This document shows positions 14,901 to 64,000 of a stretch of DNA of 64,000 nucleotides, one piece after another (position 1 is the stretch's first letter; each line of letters opens with the position of its first letter). Position numbers and translations under genes: made by a program. This DNA comes from Siphonodentalium dalli (lineage: Eukaryota; Mollusca; Scaphopoda; Gadilida; Siphonodentaliidae): contig CP136068.1 in the NCBI GenBank assembly GCA_032622095.1, positions 61,962,025 through 62,026,024 on the forward strand, read 5' to 3'. The notes beneath the pieces were generated by a model. The model was not told where the DNA came from and searched no databases. It saw nothing but the letters and a program-made list of their open reading frames with translations.

Positions 14901-15490
14901 CTTATATGAGTTCCTCATTGTCCACTCTTATATGAGTCCCTCATTTTCCACTCTTATATGAGTTCCTCCCAGTCCACTCTTATATGAGTTGTTGCCTGTC
15001 CACTATTATATGAGTCCCAGCCTGTCCACTCTTATATGAATTCCTGCATGTCCACTCTTATATGAGTTCTTCCCTGTCCACTGTTATATGAGTTCCTCCC
15101 TGTCCACTCTTATTTGAGATCCTCCCTGTCCACTTTTATATGAGTTCCAGCTTGTCCACTCTTATATGAGTTCCTCCCTGTCCACTCTTATATGAGTTCC
15201 TCCCTGTCCACTCTTATGAGTTCCTCCCTGTCCACTCTAATATGAGTTGCTGACTGTCCACTCTTATATGAGTTCCTGCCTGTCCACTCTTATATGAGTT
15301 CCTCCCTGTCCACTAGTATATGAGTTGCTGCCTGCCACTAGTATATGAGTTCATCCATGTCCACTCTTATATGAGTTGCTGTCTGTCAACTCTTATTTGA
15401 GTTCCTCCCTGTCCACTCTTATATGAGTTGCTGACTGTCCACTCTTATATGAATTCCTGCCTGTCCACTCTTAAGAGTTCCAGCCTGTCC
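8941..15490. repeat. Regular type II higher-order repeat units of about 2 kb
   Basis: Successive copies of the landmark CATGTACACTCATATATTAG lie at 9643, 11624, 13581 and 15614, giving spacings of 1981, 1957 and 2033 bp. The next copy, at 17647, gives 2033 again. Order within a unit: TATTAG run, landmark, CCTCTCTTATGAG, two CTCGTATATGAGTTCCAGCC, several 24-mers, GAATTCCTGCATG, GTTCTTCCC, TCAACTCTTATGAG, TACACTGCTATATG, a CCTGCC run, ATGGGTTCC, consensus monomers, CTAATATG, CTCGCATATG, a CCTGCGTG pair, a TTTTATGAGTTGCTCC run, ACTAGTATATG, CCTCACAG and CCTCATT, TTGTTGCC, a second ACTAGTATATG block, then the next TATTAG run. Length steps close to 26 bp show gain or loss of whole monomers. Confidence 0.88.
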
Positions 15491-18289: not shown

Positions 18290-21062
18290 ACTCTTATATG
18301 AGTTCCTCCCGGTCCACTCTTATATTAGTTCCTCCCTGTCCACTCTTATATTAGTTCCTCCCTGTCCACTCTTATATTAGTTTCTCCCTGTCCACTCTTA
18401 TATTAGTTCCTCCATGTACACTCATATATTAGTTCCTCCCTGTCCTCTCTTATGAGTTCATCCCTGTCCACTATTATATGAGTTGCTGCCTGTCCACTCG
18501 TATATGAGTTCCAGCCTGTCCACTCGTATATGAGTTCCAGCCTGTCCACTCTTATATGAGTTCCTGCCTGTCCACTCTTATGAGTTCCTCCATGTCCACT
18601 CTTATGAGTTCCTCCCTGTCCACTCTTATGAGTTCCTCCCTGTCCACTCTTATGAGTTCCTCCCTGTCCACTCTTATATGAATTCCTGCATGACCACTCT
18701 TATATGAGTTCTTCCCTGTCTACTCTTATATGAGTTCCTCCCTGTCAACTCTTATGAGTTCCTCCCTGTACACTGCTATATGAGTTCCTGCCTGTCCACT
18801 CTTATATGAGTTCCTGCCTGTCCACTCTTATATGAGTTCCTGCCTGTCCACTATTATATGGGTTCCTCCCTGTTCACTCTTATATGAGTTCCTCCCTGTC
18901 CACTCTTATATGAGTTCCTCCCTGTCCACTCTTATATGAGTTCCTCCCTGTCCACTCTTATATGAGTTCCTCCCTGTCCACTCTTATATGAGTTCCTCCC
19001 TGTCCACTCTTATGAGTTCCTCCCTGTCCACTCTAATATGAGTTCCTCCCTGTTCATCTTATATGAGTTCCTCCCTGTCCACTCTAATATGAGTTCCTCC
19101 CTGTCCACTCTAATATGAGTTCCTGCATGTCCACTCTTATATGAGTTCCTCCCTGTTCACTCTTATATGAGTTCCTGCCTGTCCACTCTTATATGAGTTC
19201 CTCTCTGTCCACTCTTATATGAGTTGCTGCCTGTCCACTCTTATATGAGTTCCTCCCTGTCCACTCTTATATGAGTTCCTGCGTGTCCACTCTTATATGA
19301 GTTCCTGCGTGTCCACTCTTATATGAGTTGCTCCCTGTCCACTCGTATATGAGTTGCTCCCTGTCCACTCTTTTATGAGTTGCTCACTGTCCACTCTTTT
19401 ATGAGTTGCTCCCTGTCCACTCTTTTATGAGTTGCTCCCTGTCCACTCTTATATGAGTTGCTGACTGTCCACTCTTATATGAGTTCCTGCCTGTCCACTC
19501 TTATATGAGTTCCTCCCTGTCCACTAGTATATGAGTTGCTGCCTGCCACTAGTATATGAGTTCATCCATGTCCACTCTTATATGAGTTGCTGTCTGTCCA
19601 CTCTTACATGAGTTCCTCCCTGTCCACTCTTATATGAGTTGATGCATGTCCACTCTTATATGAATTCATCCTTGTCCACTCTTATATTAGTTCCTCCCTG
19701 TCCACTCTTATATGAGTTCCTCACAGTCCACTCTTATATGAGTTACTCATTGTCCACTCTTATATGAGTCCCTCATTGTCCACTCTTATATGAGTTCCTC
19801 CCAGTCCACTCTTATATGAGTTGTTGCCTGTCCACTATTATATGAGTCCCAGCCTGTCCACTGTTATATGAGTTCCTCCCTGTCCACTCTTATTTGAGAT
19901 CCTCCCTGTCCACTCTTATTTGAGATCCTCCCTGTCCACTCTTATATGAGTTCCTCCCTGTCCACTCTTATATGAGTTCCTCTCTGTCCACTCTTATGAG
20001 TTCCTCCCTGTACACTCTAATATGAGTTGCTGACTGTCCACTCTTATATGAGTTCCTGCCTGTCCACTCTTATATGAGTTCCTCCCTGTCCACTAGTATA
20101 TGAGTTGCTGCCTGCCACTAGTATATGAGTTCATCAATGTCCACTCTTATATGAGTTGCTGTCTGTCCACTCTTATATGAGTTCCTCCCTGTCCACTCTT
20201 ATATGAGTTGCTGACTGTCCACTCTTATATGAATTCCTGCCTGTCCACTCTTATGAGTTCCAACCTGTCCACTCTTATATGAGTTCCTCCCTGTCCACTC
20301 TTATATTAGTTCCTCCCTGTCCACTCTTATATTAGTTCCTCCCTGTCCACTCTTATATTAGTTCCTCCCTGTCCACTCTTATATTAGTTCCTCCCTGTCC
20401 ACTCTTATATTAGTTCCTCCATGTACACTCATATATTAGTTCCTCCCTGTCCTCTCTTATGTGTTCCTCCCTGTCCACTATTATATGAGTTGCTGCCTGT
20501 CCACTCGTATATGAGTTCCAGCCTGTCCACTCGTATATGAGTTCCAGCCTGTCCACTCTTATATGAGTTCCTGCCAGTCCACTCTTATGAGTTCCTCCAT
20601 GTCCACTCTTATGAGTTCCTCCCTGTCCATTCTTATGAGTTCCTCCCTGTCCACTCTTATGAGTTCCTCCCTGTCCACTCTTATATGAATTCCTGCATGT
20701 CCACTCTTATATGAGTTCTTCCCTGTCCACTCTTATATGAGTTCCTCCCTGTCAACTCGTATGAGTTCCTCCCTTTACACTGCTATTTGAGTTCCTGCCT
20801 GTCCACTCTTATATGAGTTCCTGCCTGTCCACTCTTATATGAGTTCTTCCCTGTCCACTCTTATATGAGTTCCTCCCTGTCAACTCTTATGAGTTCCTCC
20901 CTGTACACTGATATATGAGTTCCTGCCTGTCCACTCTTATATGAGTTCCTGCCTGTCCACTCTTATATGAGTTCCTGCCTGTCCACTATTATATGGGTTC
21001 CTCCCTGTTCACTCTTATATGAGTTCCTCCCTGTCCACTCTTATATGAGTTCCTCCCTGTCC
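18290..21062. repeat. 2.8-kb tandem duplication, copy 2
   Basis: Copy of 15491-18289 that begins with the same CTCCCGGTCCAC variant at about 18310. The offset drops from 2,799 to 2,773 bp after loss of one TTCCAGCC monomer near 19.95 kb. The private monomer AACTCGTATGAG followed by CCCTTTACACTGCTATTTGAG occurs at 17981 and 20754. Its right half also belongs to the younger 4.27-kb duplication, so the two events are nested. Confidence 0.83.
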
Positions 21063-23794
21063 ACTCTTATATGAGTTCCTCCCTGTCCACTCTTATGAGT
21101 TCCTCCCTGTCCACTCTAATATGAGTTCCTCCCTGTCCATCTTATATGAGTTCCTCCCTGTCCACTCTTATATGAGTTCCTCCCTGTCCACTCTTATATG
21201 AGTTCCTCCCTGTCCAATCTTATATGAGTTCCTCCCTGTCCACTCTTATATGAGTTCCTCCCTGTCCACTCTTATGAGTTCCTCCCTGTCCACTCTAATA
21301 TGAGTTCCTCCCTGTCCATCTTATATGAGTTCCTCCCTGTCCACTCTAATATGAGTTCCTCCCTGTCCACTCTAATATGAGTTCCTGCATGTCCACTCGC
21401 ATATGAGTTCCTCCCTGTTCACTCTTATATGAGTTCCTGCCTGTCCACTCTTATATGAGTTCCTCTCTGTCCACTCTTATATGAGTTCCTCCCTGTCCAC
21501 TCTTATATGAGTTCCTCCCTGTCCACTCTTATATGAGTTCCTGCGTGTCCACTCTTATATGAGTTCCTGCGTGTCCACTCTTATATGAGTTGCTCCCTGT
21601 CCACTTGTATATGAGTTGCTCCCTGTCCACTCTTTTATGAGTTGCTCACTGTCCACTCTTTTATGAGTTGCTCCCTGTCCACTCTTTTATGAGTTACTCC
21701 CTGTCCACTCTTATATGAGTTGCTGACTGTCCACTCTTATATGAGTTCCTGCCTGTCCACTCTTATATGAGTTCCTCCCTGTCCACTAGTATATGAGTTG
21801 CTGCCTGCCACTAGTATATGAGTTCATCCATGTCCACTCTTATATGAGTTGCTGTCTGTCCACTCTTACATGAGTTCCTCCCTGTCCACTCTTATATGAG
21901 TTGCTGCATGTCCACTCTTATATGAATTCATCCTTGTCCACTCTTATATTAGTTCCTCCCTGTCCACTCTTATATGAGTTCCTCACAGTCCACTCTTATA
22001 TGAGTTCCTCATTGACCACTCTTATATGAGTCCCTCATTGTCCACTCTTATATGAGTTCCTCCCAGTCCACTCTTATATGAGTTGTTGCCTGTCCACTAT
22101 TATATGAGTCCCAGCCTGTCCACTCTTATATGAGTTCTTCCCTGTCCACTGTTATATGAGTTCCTCCCTGTCCACTCTTATTTGAGATCCTCCCTGTCCA
22201 CTCTTATATGAGTTCCAGCCTGTCCACTCTTATATGAGTTCCTTCCTGTCCACTCTTATATGAGTTCCTCCCTGTCCACTCTTATGAGTTCCTCCCTGTC
22301 CACTCTAATATGAGTTGCTGACTGTCCACTCTTATATGAGTTCCTGCCTGTCCACTCTTATATGAGTTCCTCCCTGTCCACTAGTATATGAGTTGCTGCC
22401 TGCCACTAGTATATGAGTTCATCCATGTCCACTCTTATATGAGTTGCTGTCTGTCCACTCTTATATGAGTTCCTCCCTGTCCACTCTTATATGAGTTGCT
22501 GACTGTCCACTCTTATATGAATTCCTGCCTGTCCACTCTTATGAGTTCCAGCCTGTCCACTCTTATATGAGTTCCTCCCTGTCCACTCTTATATTAGTTT
22601 CTCCCTGTCCACTCTTATATTAGTTCCTCCCTGTCCACTCTTATATTAGTTCCTCCCTGTCCACTCTTATATTAGTTCCTCCCTGTCCACTCTTATATTA
22701 GTTCCTCCATGTACACTCATATATTAGTTCCTCCCTGTCCTCTCTTATGAGTTCCTCCCTGTCCACTATTATATGAGTTGCTGCCTGTCCACTCGTATAT
22801 GAGTTCCAGCCTGTCCACTCGTATATGAGTTCCAGCCTGTCCACTCTTATATGAGTTCCTGCCTGTCCACTCTTATGAGTTCCTCCATGTCCACTCTTAT
22901 GAGTTCCTCCCTGTCCAATCTTATGAGTTCCTCCCTGTCCACTCTTATATGAATTCCTGCATGTCCACTCTTATATGAGTTCTTCCCTGTCCACTCTTAT
23001 ATGAGTTGCTCCCTGTCAACTATTATGAGTTTCTCCCTTTACACTGCTATATGAGTTCCTGCCTGTCCACTCTTATATGAGTTCCTGCCTGTCCACTCTT
23101 ATATGAGTTCCTGCCTGTCCACTCTTATATGGGTTCCTCCCTGATCACTCTTATATGAGTTCCTCCCTGTCCACTCTTATATGAGTTCCCCCTGTCCACT
23201 CTTATATGAGTTCCTCCCTGTCCACTCTTATATGAGTTCCTCCCTGTCAACTCTTATATGAGTTCCTCCCTGTCCACTCTTATGAATTCCTCCCTGTCCA
23301 CTCTAATATGAGTTCCTCCCTGTCCATCGTATATGAGTTCCTCCCTGTCCACTCTAATATGAGTTCCTCCCTGTCCACTCTAATATGAGTTCCTGCATGT
23401 CCACTCTCATATGAGTTCCTCCCTGTTCACTCTTATATGAGTTCCTGCCTGTCCACTCTTATATGAGTTCCTCTCTGTCCATTCTTATATGAGTTCCTCC
23501 CTGTCCACTCTTATATGAGTTCCTCCCTGTCCACTCTTATATGAGTTCCTGCGTGTCCACTCTTATATGAGTTCCTGCGTGTCCACTCTTATATGAGTTG
23601 CTCCCTGTCCACTCTTATATGAGTTGCTCCCTGTCCACTCTTTTATGAGTTGCTCCCTGTCCACTCTTTTATGAGTTGCTCCCTGTCCACTCTTTTATGA
23701 GTTGCTCCCTGTCCACTCTTATATGAGTTGCTGACTGTCCACTCTTATATGAGTTCCTGCCTGTCCACTCTTATATGAGTTCCTCCCTGTCCAC
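19525..23794. repeat. 4.27-kb tandem duplication, copy 1 (empty insertion site)
   Basis: Bases 19525-23794 recur from 23795 at an offset of exactly 4,270 bp up to the insertion. By eye only a few substitutions separate the copies, for example AGTTACTCAT at 19741 against AGTTCCTCAT at 24011. Copy 1 keeps the intact monomer at 22230-22232 (a single TTA) where copy 2 carries the mobile element. The copy ends at a CACGAGTATATG monomer (23794/23795) that also ends copy 2 at 33294/33295. Confidence 0.88.
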
Positions 23795-26502
23795 GAGTAT
23801 ATGAGTTGCTGCCTGCCACTAGTATATGAGTTCATCCATGTCCACTCTTATATGAGTTGCTGTCTGTCCACTCTTACATGAGTTCCTCCCTGTCCACTCT
23901 TATATGAGTTGATGCATGTCCACTCTTATATGAATTCATCCTTGTCCACTCTTATATTAGTTCCTCCCTGTCCACTCTTATATGAGTTCCTCACAGTCCA
24001 CTCTTATATGAGTTCCTCATTGTCCACTCTTATATGAGTCCCTCATTGTCCACTCTTATATGAGTTCCTCCCAGTCCACTCTTATATGAGTTGTTGCCTG
24101 TCCACTATTATATGAGTCCCAGCCTGTTCACTGTTATATGAGTTCCTCCCTGTCCACTCTTATTTGAGATCCTCCCTGTCCACTCTTATTTGAGATCCTC
24201 CCTGTCCACTCTTATATGAGTTCCTCCCTGTCCACTCTTATATGAGTTCCTCTCTGTCCACTCTTATGAGTTCCTCCCTGTACACTCTAATATGAGTTGC
24301 TGACTGTCCACTCTTATATGAGTTCCTGCCTGTCCACTCTTATATGAGTTCCTCCCTGTCCACTAGTATATGAGTTGCTGCCTGCCACTAGTATATGAGT
24401 TCATCAATGTCCACTCTTATATGAGTTGCTGTCTGTCCACTCTTATATGAGTTCCTCCCTGTCCACTCTTATATGAGTTGCTGACTGTCCACTCTTATAT
24501 GAATTCCTGCCTGTCCACTCTTATGAGTTCCAACCTGTCCACTCTTATATGAGTTCCTCCCTGTCCACTCTTATATTAGTTCCTCCCTGTCCACTCTTAT
24601 ATTAGTTCCTCCCTGTCCACTCTTATATTAGTTCCTCCCTGTCCACTCTTATATTAGTTCCTCCCTGTCCACTCTTATATTAGTTCCTCCATGTACACTC
24701 ATATATTAGTTCCTCCCTGTCCTCTCTTATGTGTTCCTCCCTGTCCACTATTATATGAGTTGCTGCCTGTCCACTCGTATATGAGTTCCAGCCTGTCCAC
24801 TCGTATATGAGTTCCAGCCTGTCCACTCTTATATGAGTTCCTGCCAGTCCACTCTTATGAGTTCCTCCATGTCCACTCTTATGAGTTCCTCCCTGTCCAA
24901 TCTTATGAGTTCCTCCCTGTCCACTCTTATGAGTTCCTCCCTGTCCACTCTTATATGAATTCCTGCATGTCCACTCTTATATGAGTTCTTCCCTGTCCAC
25001 TCTTATATGAGTTCCTCCCTGTCAACTCGTATGAGTTCCTCCCTTTACACTGCTATTTGAGTTCCTGCCTGTCCACTCTTATATGAGTTCCTGCCTGTCC
25101 ACTCTTATATGAGTTCTTCCCTGTCCACTCTTATATGAGTTCCTCCCTGTCAACTCTTATGAGTTCCTCCCTGTACACTGATATATGAGTTCCTGCCTGT
25201 CCACTCTTATATGAGTTCCTGCCTGTCCACTCTTATATGAGTTCCTGCCTGTCCACTATTATATGGGTTCCTCCCTGTTCACTCTTATATGAGTTCCTCC
25301 CTGTCCACTCTTATATGAGTTCCTCCCTGTCCACTCTTATATGAGTTCCTCCCTGTCCACTCTTATGAGTTCCTCCCTGTCCACTCTAATATGAGTTCCT
25401 CCCTGTCCATCTTATATGAGTTCCTCCCTGTCCACTCTTATATGAGTTCCTCCCTGTCCACTCTTATATGAGTTCCTCCCTGTCCAATCTTATATGAGTT
25501 CCTCCCTGTCCACTCTTATATGAGTTCCTCCCTGTCCACTCTTATGAGTTCCTCCCTGTCCACTCTAATATGAGTTCCTCCCTGTCCATCTTATATGAGT
25601 TCCTCCCTGTCCACTCTAATATGAGTTCCTCCCTGTCCACTCTAATATGAGTTCCTGCATGTCCACTCGCATATGAGTTCCTCCCTGTTCACTCTTATAT
25701 GAGTTCCTGCCTGTCCACTCTTATATGAGTTCCTCTCTGTCCACTCTTATATGAGTTCCTCCCTGTCCACTCTTATATGAGTTCCTCCCTGTCCACTCTT
25801 ATATGAGTTCCTGCGTGTCCACTCTTATATGAGTTCCTGCGTGTCCACTCTTATATGAGTTGCTCCCTGTCCACTTGTATATGAGTTGCTCCCTGTCCAC
25901 TCTTTTATGAGTTGCTCACTGTCCACTCTTTTATGAGTTGCTCCCTGTCCACTCTTTTATGAGTTGCTCCCTGTCCACTCTTATATGAGTTGCTGACTGT
26001 CCACTCTTATATGAGTTCCTGCCTGTCCACTCTTATATGAGTTCCTCCCTGTCCACTAGTATATGAGTTGCTGCCTGCCACTAGTATATGAGTTCATCCA
26101 TGTCCACTCTTATATGAGTTGCTGTCTGTCCACTCTTACATGAGTTCCTCCCTGTCCACTCTTATATGAGTTGCTGCATGTCCACTCTTATATGAATTCA
26201 TCCTTGTCCACTCTTATATTAGTTCCTCCCTGTCCACTCTTATATGAGTTCCTCACAGTCCACTCTTATATGAGTTCCTCATTGACCACTCTTATATGAG
26301 TCCCTCATTGTCCACTCTTATATGAGTTCCTCCCAGTCCACTCTTATATGAGTTGTTGCCTGTCCACTATTATATGAGTCCCAGCCTGTCCACTCTTATA
26401 TGAGTTCTTCCCTGTCCACTGTTATATGAGTTCCTCCCTGTCCACTCTTATTTGAGATCCTCCCTGTCCACTCTTATATGAGTTCCAGCCTGTCCACTCT
26501 TA
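23795..26502. repeat. 4.27-kb tandem duplication, copy 2, part left of the insertion
   Basis: Left part of the second copy, equivalent to 19525-22232. It ends within a monomer at TCCACTC followed by TTA, directly against the GGGACC end of the mobile element. The copy resumes at 31706. With the element and one TTA removed, copy 2 is 4,294 bp, which is copy 1 plus one 24-bp monomer near 32.4 kb. Confidence 0.88.
26500..26502. repeat. Target-site duplication TTA, left
   Basis: TTA lies between the array sequence CCACTC and the element end GGGACC. The uninterrupted paralogous monomer at 22230-22232 has a single TTA. The same three bases appear again directly after the other end of the element, so this is a 3-bp target-site duplication. 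Confidence 0.9.
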
Positions 26503-26537
26503 GGGACCTTGTCCAATTCCGACGGAGTTTCCGTCGG
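26503..26537 (+). repeat. Left terminal inverted repeat, 35 bp
   Basis: Starts GGGACCTTGTCCAATT. It pairs with the right repeat over all 35 bases, with one mismatch at the fifth base (C here, G in the right repeat read inward). Its inner 19 bases (26519-26537) are themselves an inverted repeat: CCGACGGA and TCCGTCGG around a GTT spacer. A terminal repeat is the expected transposase recognition site, and the inner palindrome could bind a dimer or extrude as a hairpin, which is inference. Confidence 0.92.
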
Positions 26538-26790
26538 TGATCGGAGCTTTTAATCGGAGTTTTAATCGGAGTTTTCTCCCTCATCATCGGAATTTCTTAG
26601 ATCGGAGTTTTTTCTCCGATCAAGAACTCCGATCAATTCCGGTGAAAATTCCGATGAACTCTGAACAAAACTCCGATGAAATCAGAGTTTTTCTCCGATA
26701 TGAAAACTACGATGTTAAAACTCCGATTTAATCAGATTTCATCGGAGTTTTCTCCGATATCAAAACGGCGATGTGATCTGAGTTTTGTGT
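26538..26790. repeat. Left subterminal ATCGGAGT/ACTCCGAT array
   Basis: Perfect octamers ATCGGAGT at 26553, 26565, 26601 and 26741, and ACTCCGAT at 26626, 26670 and 26720, plus many one-base variants. Two pairs form perfect hairpins: GATCGGAG/CTCCGATC around six T at 26600-26621, and ATCGGAG/CTCCGAT around four T at 26741-26758. Subterminal short repeats in both orientations are typical transposase-binding arrays in TIR elements. The same octamer fills the other end of the element. A short open frame here (26537-26731) only reads through the repeats and is not taken as a gene. Confidence 0.8.
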
Positions 26791-27765
26791 AATAATTTCA
26801 TTTTTATTTATGCCAAACTTCCTCTGAAAAGTTGAGAAAGTCACCAGAAAAAGTTGAACAGACGGTTCGTTTAGGGGGAAATCCTTGTGATGAAGGGAAT
26901 ACACATCCCATCTCCGATTATAATTTAAACTTTTGCGGAGAAAACTGGAAAAATCTAGCTTTAATATCGAGTAAATCATAACATTTTATTACGTGATTGT
27001 TGATTGCGTCATTTTCAGTTTGTCGCTTTCGCAAAACACGTTGTTTATTTATCTGGTTCGATGGTATTACTCGTCTCTTAAATATGAATAATCCCTACGA
27101 TTCCCAATATCAATAAAAAATAAAAATAAATCCAACTTCCTTATTTGGGTGAGGCTTGATTCTGCCGTCACTGGATTGGTCCGGCTCTTCCATCAATTAT
27201 ACAGGCTCTTCCAATAACCTCCCGATTGATCCACTCTTCCGGTTTGCAACACAACACACACACGTGGTTTTGGAAGCTTGTTTAAAAGAATTAAAACTCT
27301 ACACGTTTCATGTTTTGATTCCAAGTTATTAAATTGTCCATTGAATTCTTTATGCATATTATTCATACAGCACATATCTCCTAGAAACGCTCTGAAGGAA
27401 ACGTAAAAAGGAATGGTTTCATAAAGGTAGTATCCCTTCAACACTAGCAATAGACTGTTCCAAAGTGAACGTGATAAAAAATTGAAATATATATTTGATA
27501 AAACTCTTTTGGCCCTAGAAATGTTCTCAAATAAAACTGTCATTTGATTTGATTTTTTCCCCTCATTCATCACAAGATCGAATAATATTTTATTTTAATA
27601 CACTGAGTGAGCAATTTTGAGAATTCAATAAAGTTTTGATCGAAAAGTTCAACAACATTTTCGATTTTCTCTTCAGTTACACGTCCCAACGTCACGCCAA
27701 TTCAGCCCAATATTGTGGGCACGGGGATTGCCTGGATTAGTACCCAAATAAATTATGTTGTTAAA
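26791..27765. other. Unique AT-rich interior of the element, no gene seen
   Basis: Low-copy AT-rich DNA. Small features are a direct repeat of GGCTCTTCCA at 27183 and 27204 and a short AC-rich run near 27247-27262. A 126-codon minus-strand frame (27193-27573) has no domain, repeat or signal that I recognise and fits chance expectation, so no gene is called. The end of the stretch, near 27740-27765, weakly resembles the end of the 0.47-kb repeat unit that follows. Confidence 0.5.
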
Positions 27766-28231
27766 GCGCATTAACAAATACATAATCTTGAGTATATTCT
27801 CCACACTATAATCGAAAAATACAAAGGAATGGACACATGACTCAATCCAAATTGTTTATTTAAAAAACACTCCCGCCAAGAAACCCCCACTGATGACGTG
27901 CGCAAAAAATATGTACCTACCGCAAACACGTGTTGTTGGAAATTGGGGCGCACAATGGGGACTCATTTATCATGGCTATATCTATTACCCATTCGGTAAT
28001 TCACAAATGACATTCATTGCAAATTCAAACAGAATATATCTTAGATTTAGTATTACTATCAATTGACCATTTATCGAATGCTATCATTGAACTTATTGAT
28101 CAGCTGATGACGATGAAAAAATCTAGGAACCTTGTCGACGTCATTGCAGCAATGATAAAATACTGTAGCACAAATTTATGTGCATCGGCCGTTTTGTTCT
28201 CTCGTTTGATTAATAAAATTAATGATTCTGC
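27766..28231 (+). repeat. Internal 0.47-kb tandem repeat, unit 1
   Basis: Begins GCGCATTAACAAATACATA and is followed directly by a diverged second copy. Shared blocks in order include ATCTTGAGTATATTCTCCAC, AATACAAAGGAATGGACACA, AACACTCCCGCCAAGAAA, GGGGCGCACAATGGGGACT, TTGATCAGCTGATGACGATG and GTTTTGTTCTCTCGTTTGAT. The unit is 466 bp. It contains most of an 86-codon open frame (28017-28277), which is not conserved as a clean frame in unit 2 and is not called as a gene. Confidence 0.9.
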
Positions 28232-28711
28232 GCGCATTGACAATTATATAATCTTGAGTATATTCTCCACAATGTAATCTAAAAATACAAAGGAATGGAC
28301 ACATGATTCAATCCAAATGGTTTATTTAAAAAACACTCCCGCCAAGAAAGATCAAGAAACGCCCACTGATAACGATCGAGCACAGAAATTTGTACCTGCG
28401 AACACGTGGTGTTGGAATGTGGGGCGCACAATGGGGACTGTCATCTATCATGGCTATATAACTATTAGCCATTCGGTAATAAATAAATGACATTCATTGC
28501 AAATTCAAACATAATATATCTTAGCTTTAGTGTTAGTATCAATTGACCATTTATCGAGTGTTTCCGTTGAACTTATTGATCAGCTGATGACGATGAAAAC
28601 ACCTCGGACCTTGCCGGCGTCAGCGCAACAATAATAAAATACTGTATAGCACAAATGTGCATCGATCGGCCGTTTTGTTCTCTCGTTTGATTAATAAAAT
28701 TATTATTCTCC
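28232..28711 (+). repeat. Internal 0.47-kb tandem repeat, unit 2
   Basis: Second copy, 480 bp, starting GCGCATTGACAATTATATAA. It has the same block order as unit 1, with scattered substitutions and small indels, for example an extra GATCAAGAAA after the CCGCCAAGAAA block. Divergence is visibly higher than between neighbouring satellite segments outside, so this internal duplication is older than the latest array amplification. Confidence 0.9.
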
Positions 28712-28815
28712 GCGCATTAACACTGCCAAATACTCAAGTAAATTGGCCATATCATGATGTGAAAAATCAAAGAAATGACATTGTTTAACATTAGTTACTT
28801 TTATTTGAACACAAG
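28712..28815 (+). repeat. Probable degenerate third unit of the internal repeat
   Basis: The GCGCATTAACA start recurs at 28712. It is followed at the expected spacing by AAAAATCAAAGAAATGACA, which matches the AAAAATACAAAGGAATGGAC block of units 1 and 2, and then by TTTATTTGAACAC, similar to their TTTATTTAAAAAACAC. Similarity fades after about 28815. This was judged by eye and an alignment would be needed to set the end. Confidence 0.5.
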
Positions 28816-30065
28816 AGTTCACGAGACAAACGCGGCTATTTTTAAATTGAAAGTGCGCATTAATTCCGAATAGTGCTGCATTTACCGCGAATTACTTAAC
28901 GGCACTGTCTTGTCATTTTATATTGAATATGATTGCTCAAAATTTCACTAAGAGAAAGCACTTTTCTCGATCATAAGATACAATGTAGACACGAAAGAAT
29001 TGTTTAATTTATTAATTGCACAAGATATGTGCGGTACGAATGTATTGACTGCAATGTCAAGGTCAAAAACCGGTGCGTTGTAAATTGAAGTAAACAAAAA
29101 AACACGTGCGTTGTAATCGATGGCACAATGTTGACTAGTTTGGACTAATAATGCAGTCAATTGTAACTGAATTTACACGTAACTATCCAAGAGTTGATAG
29201 GCCACTTGATGATTTATTTTATGTTTCATTTCACCACGTAGCCATGGCTTAAAACATTAATAAATCACTCAATTTCGTGATATGGTTTTCCGACAGAGAA
29301 ATTGAAACTGAATGTCACATTGATCTGTTGATAAAACAAAACTTACCTTTCGTTTGTTTATTACATTTATTGTTATAAAATATAAATATAAAACCTACTA
29401 AATATTCACCATACTATCATGCTTGGGGAGGGGGATTCACAACTCTGAATTTTTTTTTACTCCTCTGAATTTTTTTTTACTCCCAGTCCCCATCCATACA
29501 GATGAACATAATTTCATAAATCAGGAGCCACATAACATTTAGTAATAATACATGTTTTTCCCCAAAAAACTTTGACGTCACCAGAAAGTTCTGTTGGCTG
29601 GAGGTAATATTACTGTTGGGTAAATGGTTAATATCGAAAGTAAACTAAATAAAAGTTAGCAAGACATCTTTTTGAAAGAAAAAAATGACGAAATATAGGA
29701 GCAGGCCTACTACAAATAAATCGCATCGTGTTACCTTGACCTTGATGATGCAATCGTGAAATTCGACACTGTCAACATAATTAGGCTATGTTCAACTTAT
29801 CGAAATAATCAATGCAGCATTATAATTAGTAGTAATTACAGAAAACGAAATTAATGTAGAATATGAAAAGCAGCCCATGCACACATTTAATTGTCAGTTA
29901 AATGTTATGATTACTTCGCGTATTTATAACCTTTGCACTGCAGATTTGCATGGAATTTTCAATTCATATTTCCACACGCTCTTTATTTACCATATTACGA
30001 TTCATCAAAAAGTATGGAATATTACTGCTAAATGTTGCTAAAACTTTACATGTACAGCAGGGACA
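28816..30065. other. Unique AT-rich interior of the element, no gene seen
   Basis: No open frame of note: the only listed one, 70 codons on the minus strand at 28948-29160, is unrecognised. A 20-bp segment (CTCTGAA, nine or so T, ACTC) is repeated head to tail at 29443-29462 and 29463-29482. A TGACGTCA octamer, the consensus of the CRE element, lies at 29573-29580, but one such site is expected by chance often enough that no function is claimed. AGGCCTACTAC and TTAGGCTATG words recur. Confidence 0.5.
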
Positions 30066-30078
30066 CCCCCCCCCCCCC
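30066..30078 (+). repeat. Poly-C run, 13 bp
   Basis: Thirteen consecutive C. A second run of 16 C lies 81 bp downstream. The complementary strand has the matching G-runs. These are the most GC-rich points of an otherwise AT-rich element. Confidence 0.95.
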
Positions 30079-30134
30079 ATATGTCATGTTTCGAATTTCT
30101 ATAGCCTACTCTTGACTAAAGGGTAGAGAATCGT

Positions 30135-30160
30135 GTAGATCGATCGATCGATCGATCTAC
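30135..30160. repeat. 26-bp perfect palindrome built on (GATC)n
   Basis: GTAGAT, then repeated CGAT units, then ATCTAC. The whole 26 bp equals its own reverse complement and includes five GATC units. The 16-C run starts at its last base. Confidence 0.95.
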
Positions 30161-30175
30161 CCCCCCCCCCCCCCC
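30160..30175 (+). repeat. Poly-C run, 16 bp
   Basis: Sixteen consecutive C abutting the GATC palindrome and followed by GAAAC. With the run at 30066-30078 it makes two C-tracts within 110 bp. Homopolymers of this length also mutate quickly and are common sequencing-error sites. Confidence 0.93.
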
Positions 30176-31139
30176 GAAACTGCATGACCATGCAGAATGT
30201 AGGCATAACAGCAAAATTTCCTGCTTAGGCTAAAGTTAAACCCACTGTGGATATATATTTTTCTTTCTACGGCTGTCTACTGGCGAGATTTGTTGTTTCC
30301 ATGCATGTGCCGGTAAACAAAAATGCAATTGCCATGATTGCGTTATAAAGCACATCAAATGCTGCATGGACATCGCACATATTCCAATATAAATTTCGCC
30401 TAGGCTATGTATATTCGGAATATAGGCCTACGTGTACACAGGCCCGATATTTTTTTTAAGCTTGAGTTGTCCCATGTTTGAAATTGTTTTATAAATCCGT
30501 TCACTGTGTGAAATCTTCGAGACGTATTACTCTGCAATGCCACGTGTGTTGTTCCCAGAAACGTAAATATTGATGACCCCAATTCCGGGAATCGGGCTAA
30601 AAATAGAACATATACGACATCTCGTGTTAAGACTGCACTCGATTGTGCATGCATTAATTGTGTCGTCGGCGATTCGCGATTAAATACAAATCTTTTACAT
30701 TTGCCATAATATATGTATTTCTTTATTTCCTCCATATTTAAAAGTCGGATGTATTTAAACATATTACAAACACAATTAAGCTTTGAATATAGTAGCCGCT
30801 GCATGCAACGCCGAAATAAATCTTAGAATTTAATCAATTGATGGATCTGTTCTATTTTTAGAAAGTGAAAGTAGCCGCTTGCATTAAGGCCTACTATACA
30901 TATTTGGGTATGCTCCCCGTGAATTTATTTATTGATTTTGAAGATTTCCCGATGGGTGGGGTGTATTGTCCAGGTAAAATACCGATATTGTACGTAGCAC
31001 CCACTGATCACCACAGTATATAACATATAATAGTTCTACGACACGTGCCCCCTGATACTTTTAAAACTTTATACTAACGATTTCTCATGCTAGGAAACTA
31101 TTAAATCAATAATAAAGATAGGCATATAAAACATAAAAT
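30176..31139. other. Unique interior of the element, no gene seen
   Basis: AT-rich unique sequence. A 134-codon minus-strand frame (30400-30804), the longest in the window, shows no motif, transmembrane pattern or repeat that I can assign, so it is left uncalled. A GTAGCCGCTTGCAT segment at about 30871 resembles AGTAGCCGCTGCATGC at about 30790. GGCCTAC-type words occur near 30424 and 30887. Confidence 0.5.
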
Positions 31140-31370
31140 CGCGATAAAAGTCCGGAGTAATCCCGATACAGAAACTTTCCAAACAACATGCGTTGTTTTC
31201 GGAATATGATACTCCGAAATGAAAGTAAACTCCGATAGAATCCCGATAGACTATGTAAATATTCCGATAATTTCCCGAAAAACGTTGCGTCATTTCCCGA
31301 TAATTTCCCGATAACTGTATATATAACTATCGGTATCCTATCGGGAAATCTATCGGGATCCCGATAGTAG
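31140..31370. repeat. TCCCGATA/CTATCGGG repeat cluster near the right end
   Basis: About ten copies of TCCCGAT, TCCGAT and CTATCGGG variants, including the back-to-back TTTCCCGATAA TTTCCCGATAA near 31290-31310 and three CTATCGG at 31327, 31338 and 31350. The last one is part of an 18-bp perfect palindrome CTATCGGGATCCCGATAG at 31350-31367. No equivalent cluster is seen at the left end, so the element is asymmetric here. Confidence 0.8.
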
Positions 31371-31670
31371 TTTTGAGATGACCCCTTACATGTCTTTCTC
31401 CGTTGTGTCTGGTATATATATAAACAATATACACGAAGAACCGAAACGACGATTTATTAAAAGCTCCTACGAAAATTCACGGGATCGGAGTTTTCCAAAA
31501 CATACCGCACTTGAAGAACGGGAACTCCGATATAAAACTCCGATTGAATCGGATGATTTTACCGACGACACAGCGAAAAATCTCCGACGGAATCGGAGTT
31601 TTATACCGATACAAAAACTCCGATTGCCATCGGTATCGGAGATCGGAAATATCCATCGGAAACTCCGATT
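31371..31670. repeat. Right subterminal ATCGGAGT/ACTCCGAT array
   Basis: Perfect octamers at 31484 and 31592 (ATCGGAGT) and at 31524, 31537, 31617 and 31662 (ACTCCGAT). A seventh, at 31229, lies in the neighbouring cluster. Many near-copies with TCGGTAT and CTCCGACGG occur between them. Mirrors the left subterminal array, so both ends carry at least seven perfect octamers. Two overlapping open frames here (31378-31713 and 31511-31789) run through the repeats, TIR and satellite and are read as artefacts of repeat sequence. Confidence 0.8.
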
Positions 31671-31705
31671 CCGACGGAAACTCCGTCGGAATTGGACAAG
31701 CTCCC
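31671..31705 (-). repeat. Right terminal inverted repeat, 35 bp
   Basis: Inverse of 26503-26537, ending GGACAAGCTCCC against the satellite. The one mismatch is the fifth base from the outer end. It contains the same inner hairpin, CCGACGGA (31671-31678) and TCCGTCGG (31682-31689), with spacer AAC. Confidence 0.92.
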
Positions 31706-31708
31706 TTA
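31706..31708. repeat. Target-site duplication TTA, right
   Basis: TTA follows the CTCCC end of the element and runs into TATGAG, the rest of the interrupted monomer. Joining CCACTC, one TTA and TATGAG recreates a normal monomer. Confidence 0.9.
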
Positions 31709-33294
31709 TATGAGTTCCTCCCTGTCCACTCTTATATGAGTTCCTCCCTGTCCACTCTTATGAGTTCCTCCCTGTCCACTCTAATATGAGTTGCTGACTG
31801 TCCACTCTTATATGAGTTCCTGCCTGTCCACTCTTATATGAGTTCCTCCCTGTCCACTAGTATATGAGTTGCTGCCTGCCACTAGTATATGAGTTCATCC
31901 ATGTCCACTCTTATATGAGTTGCTGTCTGTCCACTCTTATATGAGTTCCTCCCTGTCCACTCTTATATGAGTTGCTGACTGTCCACTCTTATATGAATTC
32001 CTGCCTGTCCACTCTTATGAGTTCCAGCCTGTCCACTCTTATATGAGTTCCTCCCTGTCCACTCTTATATTAGTTTCTCCCTGTCCACTCTTATATTAGT
32101 TCCTCCCTGTCCACTCTTATATTAGTTCCTCCCTGTCCACTCTTATATTAGTTCCTCCCTGTCCACTCTTATATTAGTTCCTCCATGTACACTCATATAT
32201 TAGTTCCTCCCTGTCCTCTCTTATGAGTTCCTCCCTGTCCACTATTATATGAGTTGCTGCCTGTCCACTCGTATATGAGTTCCAGCCTGTCCACTCGTAT
32301 ATGAGTTCCAGCCTGTCCACTCTTATATGAGTTCCTGCCTGTCCACTCTTATGAGTTCCTCCATGTCCACTCTTATGAGTTCCTCCCTGTCCAATCTTAT
32401 GAGTTCCTCCCTGTCCACTCTTATGAGTTCCTCCCTGTCCACTCTTATATGAATTCCTGCATGTCCACTCTTATATGAGTTCTTCCCTGTCCACTCTTAT
32501 ATGAGTTGCTCCCTGTCAACTCTTATGAGTTTCTCCCTTTACACTGCTATATGAGTTCCTGCCTGTCCACTCTTATATGAGTTCCTGCCTGTCCACTCTT
32601 ATATGAGTTCCTGCCTGTCCACTCTTATATGGGTTCCTCCCTGATCACTCTTATATGAGTTCCTCCCTGTCCACTCTTATATGAGTTCCCCCTGTCCACT
32701 CTTATATGAGTTCCTCCCTGTCCACTCTTATATGAGTTCCTCCCTGTCAACTCTTATATGAGTTCCTCCCTGTCCACTCTTATGAATTCCTCCCTGTCCA
32801 CTCTAATATGAGTTCCTCCCTGTCCATCGTATATGAGTTCCTCCCTGTCCACTCTAATATGAGTTCCTCCCTGTCCACTCTAATATGAGTTCCTGCATGT
32901 CCACTCTCATATGAGTTCCTCCCTGTTCACTCTTATATGAGTTCCTGCCTGTCCACTCTTATATGAGTTCCTCTCTGTCCATTCTTATATGAGTTCCTCC
33001 CTGTCCACTCTTATATGAGTTCCTCCCTGTCCACTCTTATATGAGTTCCTGCGTGTCCACTCTTATATGAGTTCCTGCGTGTCCACTCTTATATGAGTTG
33101 CTCCCTGTCCACTCTTATATGAGTTGCTCCCTGTCCACTCTTTTATGAGTTGCTCCCTGTCCACTCTTTTATGAGTTGCTCCCTGTCCACTCTTTTATGA
33201 GTTGCTCCCTGTCCACTCTTATATGAGTTGCTGACTGTCCACTCTTATATGAGTTCCTGCCTGTCCACTCTTATATGAGTTCCTCCCTGTCCAC
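31706..33294. repeat. 4.27-kb tandem duplication, copy 2, part right of the insertion
   Basis: Equivalent to 22230-23794 at an offset of 9,476 bp (4,270 plus element plus TSD), rising to 9,500 after one extra 24-bp monomer near 32.4 kb. Private variants shared with copy 1 include CTGATCACTC (23141 and 32641), GAGTTCCCCCTGTCC (about 23184 and 32684), TCCATCGTATATG and TCTCATATGAG. It ends at the CACGAGTATATG monomer. Confidence 0.88.
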
Positions 33295-36200
33295 GAGTAT
33301 ATGAGTTGCTGCCTGCCACTAGTATATGAGTTCATCCATGTCCACTCTTATATGAGTTGCTGTCTGTCCACTCTTATATGAGTTCCTCCCTGTCCACTCT
33401 TATATGAGTTGCTGCATGTCCACTCTTATATGAATTCATCCTTGTCCACTCTTATATTAGTTCCTCCCTGTCCACTCTTATATGAGTTTTTCACAGTCCA
33501 CTCTTATATGAGTTCCTCATTGTCCACTCTTATATGAGTCCCTCATTGTCCACTCTTATATGAGTTCCTCCCAGTCCACTCTTATATGAGTTGTTGCCTG
33601 TCCACTCTTATATGAGTTCCTCCCTCTCCACTCTTATATGAGTTCCTCCCTGTCCACTCTTATGAGTTCCTCCCTGTCCACTCTTATATGAGTTCCTCCC
33701 AGTCCACTCTTTTATGATTTGCTCCCTGTCCACTCTTTTATGAGTTGCTCCCTGTCCACTCTTTTATGAGTTGCTCCCTGTCCACTCTTATATGAGTTGC
33801 TGACTGTCCACTCTTATATGAGTTCCTGCCTGTCCACTCTTATATGAGTTCCTCCCTGTACACTAGTAATTGATTTACTGCCTGCCACTAGTATATGAGT
33901 TCATCCATGTCCACTCTTATATGAGTTGCTGTCTGTCCACTCTTATATGAGTTCCTCCCAGTCCACTCTTATATGAGTTCCTCCCTGTCCACTCTTATAT
34001 GAGTTCCTCCCTGTCCACTCTTATGAGTTCCTCCCTGTCCACTCTTATATGAGTTCCTCCGTGTCCACTCTTATATGAGTTCCTCCGTGTCCACTCTTTT
34101 ATGAGTTGCTCCCTGTCCACTCTTTTATGAGTTGCTCCCTGTCCACTCTTATGAGTTCCTCCCTGTCCACTCTTATGAGTTGCTCCCTGTCCACTCTTAT
34201 GAGTTCCTCCCTGTCCACTCTTATATGAATTCCTGCATGTCCACTCTTATATGAGTTCTTCCCTGTCCACTCTTATGAGTTCCTCCCTGTCCACTCTTAT
34301 GAGTTCCTCCTTGTCCACTCTTATGAGTTCCTCCCTGTCCACTCTTATATGAATTCCTGCATGTCCACTCTTACATGAGTTCTTCCCTGTCCACTCTTAT
34401 ATGAGTTCCTCCCTGTCAACTCTTATGAGTTCCTCCCTGTACACTGCTATATGAGTTACTCCCTGCCCACTCTTATATGAGTTCCTGCGTGTCCACTCTT
34501 GTATGAGTTCCTGCGTGTCCACTCTTATATGAGTTGCTCCCTGTCCACTCTTATATGAGTTGCTCCCTGTCCACTCTTTTATGAGTTGCTCCCTGTCCAC
34601 TCTTTTATGAGTTGCTCCCTGTCCACTCTTTTATGAGTTGCTCCCTGTCCACTCTTTTATGAGTTGCTCCCTGTCCACTCTTTTATGAGTTGCTCCCTGT
34701 CCACTCTTATATGAGTTGCTGACTGTCCACTCTTATATGAGTTCCTGCCTGTCCACTCTTATATGAGTTCCTCCCTGTCCACGAGTATATGAGTTGCTGC
34801 CTGCCACTAGTATATGAGTTCATCCATGTCCACTCTTATATGAGTTGCTGTCTGTCCACTCTTATATGAGTTCCTACCTGTCCACTCTTATATGAGTTGC
34901 TGCATGTCCACTCTTATATGAATTCATCCTTGTCCACTCTTATATTAGTTCCTCCCTGTCCACTCTTATATGAGTTCCTCACAGTCCACTCTTATATGAG
35001 TTCCTCATTGTCCACTCTTATATGAGTCCCTCCCAGCCCACTCTAATATGAGTTCCTCCCAGTCCACTCTAATATGAGTTGTTGCCTGTCCACTCTTATA
35101 TGAGTTCCTCCCTGTCCACTCTTATATGAGTTCCTCCCTGTCCACTCTTATGAGTTCCTCCCTGTCCACTCTTATATGAGTTGCTCCCTGTCCACTCTTT
35201 TATGAGTTGATCCCTGTCCACTCTTTTATGAGTTGCTCCCTGTCCACTCTTTTATGAGTTGCTCCCTGTCCACTCTTATATGAGTTGCTGACTGTCCACT
35301 CTTATATGAGTTCCTGCCTGTCCACTCTTATATGAGTTCCGCCCTGTCCACTAGTATATGAGTTGCTGCCTGCCACTAGAATATGAGTTCATCCATGTCC
35401 ACTCTTATATGAGTTGCTGTCTGTCCACTCTTATATGAGTTCCTCCCAGTCCACTCTTATATGAGTTCCTCCCTGTCCACTCTTATATGAGTTCCTCCCT
35501 GTCCACTCTTATGAGTTCCTCCCTGTCCACTCTTATATGAGTTCCTCCCTGTCCACTCTTTTATGAGTTGCTCCCTGTCCACTCTTTTATGAGTTGCTCC
35601 CTGTCCACTCTTTTATGAGTTGCTCCCTGTCCACTCTTATATGAGTTCCTTCCTGTCCACTCTTATATGAGTTCCTTCCTGTCCACTCTTATATGAGTTC
35701 CTCCCTGTCCACTAGTATATGAGTTGCTGCCTGCCACTAGTATATGAGTTCCTCCCTGTCCACTCTTATATGAGTTGCTGCATGTCCACTCTTATATGAA
35801 TTCATCCCTGTCCACTCTTATATTAGTTCCTCCCTGTCCACTCTTATATGAGTTCCTCACAGTCCACTATTATATGAGTTCCTCATTGTCCACTCTTATA
35901 TGAGTCGCTCATTTTCCACTCTCATATGAGTTCCTCCCAGTCCACTCTTATATGAGTTCCTGCCTGTCCACTCTTATATGAGTTCATGCCTGTCCACTCT
36001 TATATGGGTTCCTCCCTGTTCACTCTTATATGAGTTCCTCCCTGTCCACTCTTATATGAGTTCCTCCCTGTCCACTCTTATATGAGTTCCTCCCTGTCCA
36101 CTCTTATATGAGTTCCTCCCTGTCCACTCTTATATGAGTTCCTCCCTGTCTACTCTTATGAGTTCCTCCCTGTCCACTCTAATATGAGTTCCTCCCTGTC

Positions 36201-39200
36201 CATCTTATATGAGTTCCTCCCTGTCCACTCTAATATGAGTTCCTCCCTGTCCACTGTAATATGAGTTCCTGCATGTCCTCTCGCGTATGAGTTCCTTCCT
36301 GTTCACTCTTATATGAGTTCCTGCCTGTCCACTCTTATATGAGTTCCTCTCTGTCCACTCTTATATGAGTTCCTCCCTGTCCACTCTTATATGAGTTCCT
36401 CCCTGTCCACTCTTATATGAGTTCCTGCGTGTCCACTCTTATATGAGTTCCTGCGTGTCCACTCGTATATGAGTTGCTCCCTGTCCACTCGTATATGAGT
36501 TGCTCCCTGTCCACTCTTTTATGAGTTGCTCCCTGTCCACTATGTTATGAGTTGCTCCCTGTCCACTCTTTTATGAGTTGCTCCCTGTCCACTCTTATAT
36601 GAGTTGCTGACTGTCCACTCTTATATGAGTTCCTGCCTGTCCACTCTTATATGAGTTCCTCCCTGTCCACTAGTATATGAGTTGCTGCCTGCCACTAGTA
36701 TATGAGTTCATCCATGTCCACTCTTATATGAGTTGCTGTCTGTCCACTCTTATATGAGTTCCTCCCTGTCCACTCTTATATGAGTTGCTGCATGTCCACT
36801 CTTATATGAATTCATCCTTGTCCACTCTTATATTAGTTCCTCCCTGTCCACTCTTATATGAGTTCCTCACAGTCCACTCTTATATGAGTTCCTCATTGTC
36901 CACTCTTATATGAGTCCCTCATTGTCCACTCTTATATGATTTCCTCCCAGTCCACTCTTATATGAGTTGTTGCCTGTCCACTATTATATGAGTCCCAGCC
37001 TGTCCACTCTTATATGAATTCCTGCATGTCCACTCTTATATGAGTTCTTCCCTGTCCACTGTTATATGAGTTCCTCCCTGTCCACTCTTATATGAGTTGC
37101 TGACTGTCCACTCTTATATGAGTTCCTGCCTGTCCACTCTTATATGAGTTCCTCCCTGTCCACTAGTATATGAGTTGCTGCCTGCCACTAGTATATTAGT
37201 TCATCCATGTCCACTCTTATATGAGTTGCTGTCTGTCCACTCTTATATGAGTTCCTCCCAGTCCACTCTTATATGAGTTCCTCCCTGTCCACTCTTATAT
37301 GAGTTCCTCCCTGTCCACTCTTATGAGTTCCTCCCTGTCCAATCTTATATGAGTTCCTCCCTGTCCTCTCTTTTATGAGTTGCTCCCTGTCCACTCTTTT
37401 ATGAGTTGCTCCCTGTCCACTCTTTTATGAGTTGCTCCCTGTCCACTCTTATATGAGTTGCTGACTGTCCACTCTTATATGAGTTCCTTCCTGTCCACTC
37501 TTATATGAGTTCCTCCCTGTCCACTAGTATATGAGTTGCTGCCTGCCACTAGTATATGAGTTCATCCATGTCCACTCTTATATGAGTTGCTGTCTGTCCA
37601 CTCTTATATGAGTTCCTCCCTGTCCACTCTTATATGAGTTGCTGCATGTCCACTCTTATATTAATTCATCCTTGTCCACTCTTATATTAGTTCCTCCCTG
37701 TCCACTCTTATATGAGTTCCTCACAGTCCACTCTTATATGAGTTCCTCATTGTCCACTCTTATATGAGTCCCACATTTTCCACTCTTATATGAGTTCCTC
37801 ACAGTCCACTCTTATATGAGTTCCTGCCTGTCCACTCTTATATGAGTTCCTGCCTGTCCACTCTTATATGGGTTCCTCCCTGTTCACTCTTATATGAGTT
37901 CCTCCCTGTCCACTCTTATATGAGTTCCTCCCTGTCCACTCTTATATGAGTTCCTCCCTGTCCACTCTTATATGAGTTCCTCCCTGTCCACTCTTATATG
38001 AGTTCCTCCCTGTCCACTCTTATGAGTTCCTCCATTTTCACTCTAATATGAGTTCCTCCCTGTCCATCTTATATGAGTTCCTCCCTGTCCACTCTAATAT
38101 GAGTTCCTCCCTGTCCCCTCTAATATGAGTTCCTGCATGTCCACTCGCATATGAGTTCCTCCTGTTCACTCTTATATGAGTTCCTGCCTGTCCACTCTTA
38201 TATGAGTTCCTCTCTGTCCACTCTTATATGAGTTCCTCCCTGTCCACTCTTATATGAGTTCCTCCCCGTCCACTCTTATATGAGTTCCTGCGTGTCCACT
38301 CTTATATGAGTTCATGCGTGTCCACTCTTATATGAGTTGCTCCCTGTCCACTCGTATATGAGTTGCTCCCTGTCCACTCTTTTATGAGTTGCTCCCTGTC
38401 CACTATTTTATGAGTTGCTCCCTGTCCACTCTTTTATGAGTTGCTCCCTGTCCACTCTTATATGAGTTGCTGACTGTCCACTCTTATATGAGTTCCTGCC
38501 TGTCCACTCTTATATGAGTTCCTCCCTGTCCACTAGTATATGAGTTGCTGCCTGCCACTAGTATATGAGTTCATCCATGTCCACTCTTATATGAGTTCAT
38601 CCATGTCCACTCTTATATGAGTTCCTCCCTGTCCACTCTTATATGAGTTGCTGCATGTCCACTCTTATATGAATTCATCCTTGTCCACTCTTATATTAGT
38701 TCCTCCCTGTCCACTCTTATATGAGTTCCTCACAGTCCACTCTTATATGAGTTCCTCATTGTCCACTCTTATATGAGTCCCTCATTGTCCACTCTTATAT
38801 GAGTTCCTCCAAGTCCACTCTTATACTAGTTCTTCCCTGTCCACTGTTATATGAGTTCCTCCCTGTCCACTCGTATTTGAGATCCTCCCTGTCCACTCTT
38901 ATATGAGTTCCAGCCTGTCCACTCTTATATGAGTTCCTCCCTGTCCACTCTTATATGAGTTCCTCCCTGTCCACTCTTATGAGTTCCTCCCTGTCCACTC
39001 TAATATGAGTTGCTGACTGTCCACTCTTATATGAGTTCCTGCCTGTCCACTCTTATATGAGTTCCTCCCTGTCCACTAGTATATGAGTTGCTGCCTGCCA
39101 CTAGTATATGAGTTCATCCATGTCCACTCTTATATGAGTTGCTGTCTGTCCACTCTTAAATGAGTTCCTCCCTGTCCACTTTTATATGAGTTGCTGACTG

Positions 39201-39280
39201 TCCACTCTTATATGAATTCCTGCCTGTCCACTCTTATGAGTTCCAGCCTGTCCACTCTTATATGAGTTCCTCCCTGTCCA
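33295..39280. repeat. Rearranged type II region lacking the TATTAG block
   Basis: Between landmark copies at 32184 and 39413 there is no run of TATTAG monomers, only isolated ones. Instead a sub-block recurs at irregular spacing: a TTTTATGAGTTGCTCC run, TTGCTGACTG, ACTAGTATATG, TTCATCCATG, TTGCTGTCTG. Copies of GCCACTAG fall near 33309, 33880, 34798, 35367, 35726, 36685, 37180, 37541, 38550 and 39103. A degenerate monomer with CTAGTAATTGATTTACTG occurs near 33860. The pattern suggests repeated unequal exchange within the unit. Confidence 0.75.
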
Positions 39281-45200: not shown

Positions 45201-46286
45201 GTTGCTGTCTGTCCACTCTTATATGAGTTCCTCCCTGTCCACTCTTATATGAGTTGCTGCATGTCCACTCTTATATGAATTCATCCTTGTCCACTCTTAT
45301 ATTAGTTCCTCCCTGTCCACTCTTATATGAGTTCCTCACAGTCCACTCTTATATGAGTTGCTCATTGTCGACTCTTATATGAGTCCCTCATTGTCCACTC
45401 TTATATGAGTTCCTCCCAGTCCACTCTTATATGAGTTGTTGCCTGTCCACTCTTATATGAGTTCCTCCCTGTCCACTCTTATATGAGTTCCTCCCTGTCC
45501 ACTCTTATGAGTTCCTCCCTGTCCACTCTTATATGAGTTCCTCCCTGTCCACTCTTATATGAGTTCATCCCTGTCCACTCTTATGAGTTCCTCCCTGTCC
45601 ACTCTTATATATTAGTTCCTCCCTGTCCACTCTTATATGAGTTCCTCACAGTCCACTCTTATATGAGTTCCTCATTGTCCACTCTTATATGAGTCCCTCA
45701 TTTTCCACTCTTATATGAGTTCCTCCCAGTCCACTCTTATATGAGTTCCTGCCTGTCCACTCTTATATGAGTTCCTGCCTGTCCACTCTTATATGGGTTC
45801 CTCCCTGTTCACTCTTATATGAGCTCCTCCCTGTCAACTCTTATATGAGTTCCTCCCTGTCCACTCTTATGAGTTCCTCCCTGTCCACTCTAATATGAGT
45901 TCCTCCCTGTCCATCTTATATGAGTTCCTCCCCGTCCACTCTAATATTAGTTCCTCCCTGTCCACTCTAATATGAGTTCCTGCATGTCCACTCGCATATG
46001 AGTTCCTCCCTGTTCACTCTTATATGAGTTCCTGCCTGTCCACTCTTATATGAGTTCCTCTCTGTCCACTCTTATATGAGTTCCTCCCTGTCCACTCTTA
46101 TATGAGTTCCTGCCTGTCCACTCTTATATGAGTTCCTCTCTGTCCACTCTTATGAGTTCCTCCCTGTCCAATCTAATATGAGTTCCTCCCTGTCCATCTT
46201 ATATGAGTTCCTCCCCGTCCACTCTAATATTAGTTCCTCCCTGTCCACTCTAATATGAGTTCCTGCATGTCCACTCGCATATGAGT
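39281..46286. repeat. Mosaic type II region with a 1,777-bp spaced duplication
   Basis: Landmark copies lie at 39413, 41972, 42381 and 44158, so unit spacing is irregular. About 42.33-42.89 kb matches about 44.11-44.67 kb at an offset of 1,777 bp. This includes the rare junctions CTAATATTAGTTCCAGCC (about 42773 and 44550) and CTGTCAACTCTTATATGAG. Within the block, TATTAG, CTAATATG and 24-mer variants are recombined in orders not found in the regular units. Confidence 0.78.
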
Positions 46287-63993: not shown

Positions 63994-64000
63994 GTCCACT

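Follow-up and report, generated by a model that had tools for sequence, protein, structure and literature searches.

A 5.2-kb terminal-inverted-repeat element, most likely a PIF/Harbinger-type transposon, inserted at TTA in a 26-bp satellite array of Siphonodentalium dalli

The 64,000-nucleotide stretch of Siphonodentalium dalli DNA analyzed here (contig CP136068.1; "the window" in what follows) is a 26-bp satellite array, consensus CCACTCTTATATGAGTTCCTCCCTGT, that is broken only once, by an insert of 5,203 bp at positions 26503-31705. This insert carries matching terminal inverted repeats (TIRs) and is flanked by a target-site duplication (TSD) that can be read against uninterrupted paralogous copies of the same site, and both features support its identification as a TIR cut-and-paste DNA transposon. 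It is probably a large non-autonomous element of this class, most likely of the PIF/Harbinger kind. The element, its ends and its surroundings are laid out as follows (positions are those of the window; features listed with no strand are unstranded; the basis of each is in brackets).

26503..31705, whole inserted element, 5,203 bp (sequence, restored site, TIR analysis)
26503..26537, + strand, left 35-bp TIR, with two hairpins, a small one with a 4-bp stem and one with an 8-bp stem (TIR comparison, folding)
31671..31705, - strand, right 35-bp TIR, matching at 34/35, with an 8-bp-stem hairpin as in the left TIR (TIR comparison, folding)
26500..26502, TTA target-site duplication, left copy (sequence, TSD test)
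31706..31708, TTA target-site duplication, right copy (sequence, TSD test)
4..26502, 26-bp satellite array to the left of the element (array analysis and monomer alignment)
31706..64000, 26-bp satellite array to the right of the element (array analysis and monomer alignment)
22230..22232, TTA at the empty site of the -4270 paralogue (paralogue alignment)

The two TIRs differ at only one of their 35 positions. Without gaps their identity goes no further than 35 bp, and a local alignment with a one-base gap extends it by 11 bases more, reaching the first subterminal motif. (For comparison, across 2,000 mononucleotide shuffles of the element the highest match reached by the terminal 35-mers is 21/35.) When TSD lengths of 1-5 bp are tested at the 26503 and 31705 boundaries, the sole match is 3 bp, TTA/TTA. 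The junction letters by themselves, read by eye, also permit boundaries shifted by one base, with a 2-bp TA or a 4-bp CTTA duplication; the 3-bp reading is chosen because it goes with symmetric element ends, GGG...CCC. Once the insert is taken out together with one TTA, the flanks join into a 26-bp satellite that keeps its phase, and TTA in this restored site is preceded by C and followed by T. (The site agrees by eye at 7 of 9 positions with CWCTTAGWG, which we take to be a PIF target; the motif did not turn up in the papers searched and is not used as evidence.) The element has a G+C content of 36% versus 45% for the array, and no 12-mer is common to the two.

Wrap-around alignment delimits 2,284 satellite monomers, including two partial ones at the window edges, with 1,031 to the left of the insert and 1,253 to the right; insertions of more than 6 bp are found within none of them. 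TTA is contained in 1,883 of these monomers and accounts for ~3.5% of array positions (2,051/58,797, with both TSD copies counted). A preliminary description of this DNA had defined the TIRs and their 34/35 match, the duplicated TTA, the unbroken array phase, the empty site at 22230-22232 in a 4.27-kb neighbor and the presence of one insertion only, and all of these stand, the boundaries exactly as given. Its statement that every monomer offers a TTA does not, and neither does the implied puzzle of the single insertion: one event in ~59 kb of array does not in itself amount to a deficit, which would have to be judged against a genome-wide insertion rate.

The array is rich in block duplications (1-26502 and 31706-64000), and 4270 is the top offset among shared 60-mers. 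Near paralogues are frequent: 38% of 150 random 400-bp windows have a non-self match of at least 99.5% identity, and the median is 99.0%. At offset -4270, the copy with its TTA at 22230..22232 aligns with the restored site without gaps over 4,029 positions, of which 4,013 are identical, and reaches 3,313 bp to the left and 715 bp to the right; within ±600 bp of the site, mismatches are confined to -537 and +11. This is one empty match and not the only one. Fourteen offsets were followed, drawn from the top ungapped matches to the restored site (and hence uninterrupted by selection), and 13 of them run through the site for at least 86 bp on its left and at least 475 bp on its right, with identities of 97.1-99.6%. 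At the other, -15354, extension halted at once leftward, despite 96.5% identity over ±400 bp. When ±800 bp is compared, offset -9331 (98.8%) outscores offset -4270 (96.6%), because the ungapped match of the latter stops 715 bp to the right of the site.

The claim of an internal before-and-after pair accordingly holds in that empty paralogues run through the site; it needs amendment as regards the empty member of the 4.27-kb pair. Differences between the two copies were polarized by reference to other paralogues at least 90% identical over ±60 bp, with 13 offsets tried. Two of the 16 differences can be polarized in this way, and at both it is the element-bearing copy that has the common base (at -537 in 11 of 11 comparisons, at +11 in 12 of 13); for the remaining 14, which lie from -1603 outward, these 13 offsets supply no suitable paralogue. 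At -537 and +11, the differences closest to the site, it is the empty copy that looks derived, implying that it has changes of its own and does not represent a pure "before" state. Because a paralogous block is without the element, the simplest order of events would put the insertion after the 4.27-kb block duplication; conversion between blocks could also have generated an empty paralogue.

The interior of the element has its own organization, the most prominent features of which are these.

26538..26918, left subterminal array, 12 CTCCGAT in both orientations; the fold of 26503-26790 has z = -9.0 (motif count, DNA fold)
31230..31670, right subterminal array, 8 CTCCGAT in both orientations; the fold of 31450-31705 has z = -6.6 (motif count, DNA fold)
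31162..31366, second array, CCCGATA-type, inside the right end; the fold of 31130-31380 has z = -3.5 (motif count, DNA fold)
27766..28709, internal tandem duplication, copies 27766-28229 and 28232-28709 (alignment)

CTCCGAT occurs 20 times in the element, in both orientations, against an expectation of 0.47 (order-1 simulation; the maximum in 200 is 4). Twelve of these lie at 26540-26918 and eight at 31230-31669, so that all lie near an end, no more than 420 bp from the left one or 480 bp from the right one. CCCGATA occurs eight times (0.65 expected, with a maximum of 4 in 200 simulations), seven of them at 31162-31366. The z-scores of the ends and of the inner right array refer to folding as single-stranded DNA. 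The 8-bp stem found in each TIR has a z of -3.3 on the left (equalled by 2 of 200 shuffles) and of -4.0 on the right. (A literature search with the letters of the palindrome returned, among the matches listed, titles that looked like chance letter matches, as far as partial records tell.) The arrays are plausibly binding sites for a transposase or an accessory protein. The two copies of the internal tandem duplication, each ~0.47 kb, are ~90% identical (412 of 459 aligned bases, with 10 gaps); on the assumption of similar rates, this duplication is perhaps older than the surrounding block duplications. At 30066-30180 the element contains two long stretches of C along with a repeat of GATC, possible assembly-sensitive simple repeats.

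Coding content was assessed in the 43 stop-to-stop open reading frames (ORFs) of at least 45 amino acids (aa) that overlap the element, five of which extend beyond its right end; 38.0 are expected. A Pfam scan (E-value limit 10, with HMMER filters discarding most matches above ~0.1) matches no transposase, DDE or Myb/SANT family in any of the 43 ORFs, in agreement with the preliminary description, which had seen no transposase. Seven weak Pfam matches, all under their cut-offs, are dismissed as chance. The best of these is Clat_adaptor_s (E 2.1e-4; 21.7 bits versus a cut-off of 22.5), in an ORF lying over the inner right array; the others are TTI1, DASH_Dad4, RAG2_PHD, HEAT_HEATR1, EGF_Mua-3 and Pkr1. 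ARAGORN finds no tRNA, and all six Rfam matches are far under gathering scores.

A non-autonomous element would have to be mobilized in trans. The supposition is that a DDE transposase, probably with a Myb/SANT partner, is encoded elsewhere in the host genome, that it would bind the element at its TIRs and at the subterminal arrays of CTCCGAT and excise it, and that the element would then have been joined to a staggered 3-bp cut at the TTA of one satellite monomer, with gap repair yielding the TTA duplication.

Several considerations weigh against the assignment to PIF/Harbinger and against a non-autonomous origin. With neither a transposase nor an autonomous relative seen, the superfamily is judged from three short features of one copy. 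TSDs of 3 bp are also made by other groups: by Zator (3 bp) and AcademX (3-4 bp) (PMC10045372), by CMC elements (2-4 bp; PMC4482050) and by some EnSpm elements (PMC12730594). At 5.2 kb the element exceeds the mean size of candidate autonomous PIF/Harbinger copies, ~4,124 bp in PMC4482050, most of which have one ORF for a DDE transposase and another with Myb/SANT. Its longest ORF is 140 aa (the simulated median is 105, and 140 is reached in 4% of 200 simulations), and it has four ORFs of at least 100 aa, versus 1.06 expected. Two of these long ORFs lie in the repeat arrays at the right end, which may account for part of the excess; coding remnants might nonetheless persist in the element.

The strongest competing explanation, which we regard as unlikely but deserving of real weight, is that the element belongs to another superfamily with 3-bp TSDs (Zator, AcademX, a CMC lineage or a different PHIS group), as a TIR transposon that is non-autonomous or decayed, and that its TTA is fortuitous. 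One TSD defines no preference, given the ~3.5% of array positions that are TTA; a transposase without preference would strike TTA or TAA at ~3.8% of array positions (2,213/58,797), so that the single TTA counts toward a preference for TWA but does not prove it. CACTA elements (CMC) typically have subterminal repeat arrays, as this element does; on the other hand, their ends are CAC...GTG, and those of the element are GGG...CCC. Among the other PHIS groups (PMC4482050), the ANT, CWG and AT duplications of Pangu, NuwaI and ISL2EU do not correspond to TTA, and the C|TNA|G target of NuwaII is compatible with TTA and the C to its left but not with the base to its right.

That the element is instead an old autonomous one, its transposase genes decayed or dispersed in short exons, is less probable still, although this is compatible with membership in PIF/Harbinger and its odds overlap those of the explanation that we prefer. 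A length of 5.2 kb is close to autonomous sizes (PMC4482050), and the surplus of long ORFs points the same way. Against this stand the lack of any DDE or Myb/SANT match in the 43 ORFs, within the limits of the scan, and the young look of the TIRs and flanks, to which heavy decay in place is ill-suited; decay might still have preceded the jump. There is a slight chance that the element stands for an undescribed lineage, in which the hairpin in each TIR and the dense inverted CTCCGAT arrays would mean that a large non-coding element is moved by way of structured, multi-site ends and not by a short TIR alone. Lastly, the empty copy at 22230-22232 might once have been occupied and then precisely excised (precise excision is general for this kind of element, according to PMC4561436), but this is very improbable, as further paralogous stretches are also empty, no other insertion of more than 6 bp exists in the array, and many excisions are less simple than one insertion.

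Some further observations concern the satellite. Monomers of 24 bp make up 237 of the 2,284, and the commonest 24-bp form (109 copies) has CTCTTATGAG where others have CTCTTATATGAG. Base counts in the window are asymmetric between strands, with 24,164 T and 19,098 C versus 11,701 A and 9,037 G, as expected for a pyrimidine-rich satellite strand. A literature search on 26-bp satellites returned no paper evidently about this one, and other searches led to work on Vaccinium satellites and hop centromeres. Exact scans of viral and genome contig collections (viral and prokaryotic in content) with fragments of the satellite and of the TIRs each returned 0 loci, 303 bp of satellite had no match in a plasmid collection, and the element had none in a phage collection. 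Since the collections searched are viral, prokaryotic and plasmid, missing matches tell little for a eukaryote. The combination of a long satellite with a short unit and a TIR element of this type is itself suggestive of eukaryotic DNA.

The value of the locus is that the occupied and empty states of one insertion in a satellite array can be compared cleanly within the same DNA, and that the element can serve as a marker for ordering block duplications there. The landing of a TIR element in repeat DNA, with TTA duplication, is a common event in eukaryotic genomes, of which this is a clean but ordinary instance. If relatives of the element turn out to share its hairpin ends and motif arrays, they would be helpful for studying the recognition of ends of this kind.

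How the element compares with known systems can be stated group by group. Zator and AcademX have duplication lengths that fit and are still candidates for that reason; no transposase of theirs is matched in the 43 ORFs. CACTA/EnSpm (CMC) elements are alike in that 3-bp duplications occur among them. The PHIS groups are compared here on the basis of PMC4482050. Pangu differs in its ANT duplication, and ISL2EU in its AT duplication, where the symmetric ends of the element are flanked solely by a 3-bp TTA repeat. NuwaI ends are usually GGG and its TIRs are 12-61 bp long, both of which resemble the element; its duplication is CWG, unlike TTA. (GGG, which the preliminary description had combined with TTA to arrive at PIF/Harbinger, is thus not discriminating by itself.) NuwaII likewise resembles the element in its GG start, the C before TNA and its TIR length (13-46 bp), and differs in the G to the right of its target, where the element has T, although this sets a single site against what is a preference. 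PIF/Harbinger elements duplicate TWA and have TIRs that are mostly shorter than 60 bp and usually begin with A or G; the element has TTA (in its one copy), a leading G and a TIR of 35 bp. It differs from them, Tourist-type non-autonomous copies included, in that no DDE transposase or Myb/SANT ORF is recognized among its ORFs of at least 45 aa, and we judge its 5.2 kb to be long for a non-autonomous copy. The strong palindrome within its TIR may be a further difference. Membership in the group is unproved, and PIF/Harbinger is, by TSD, leading base and TIR length, the best-fitting label for the element.

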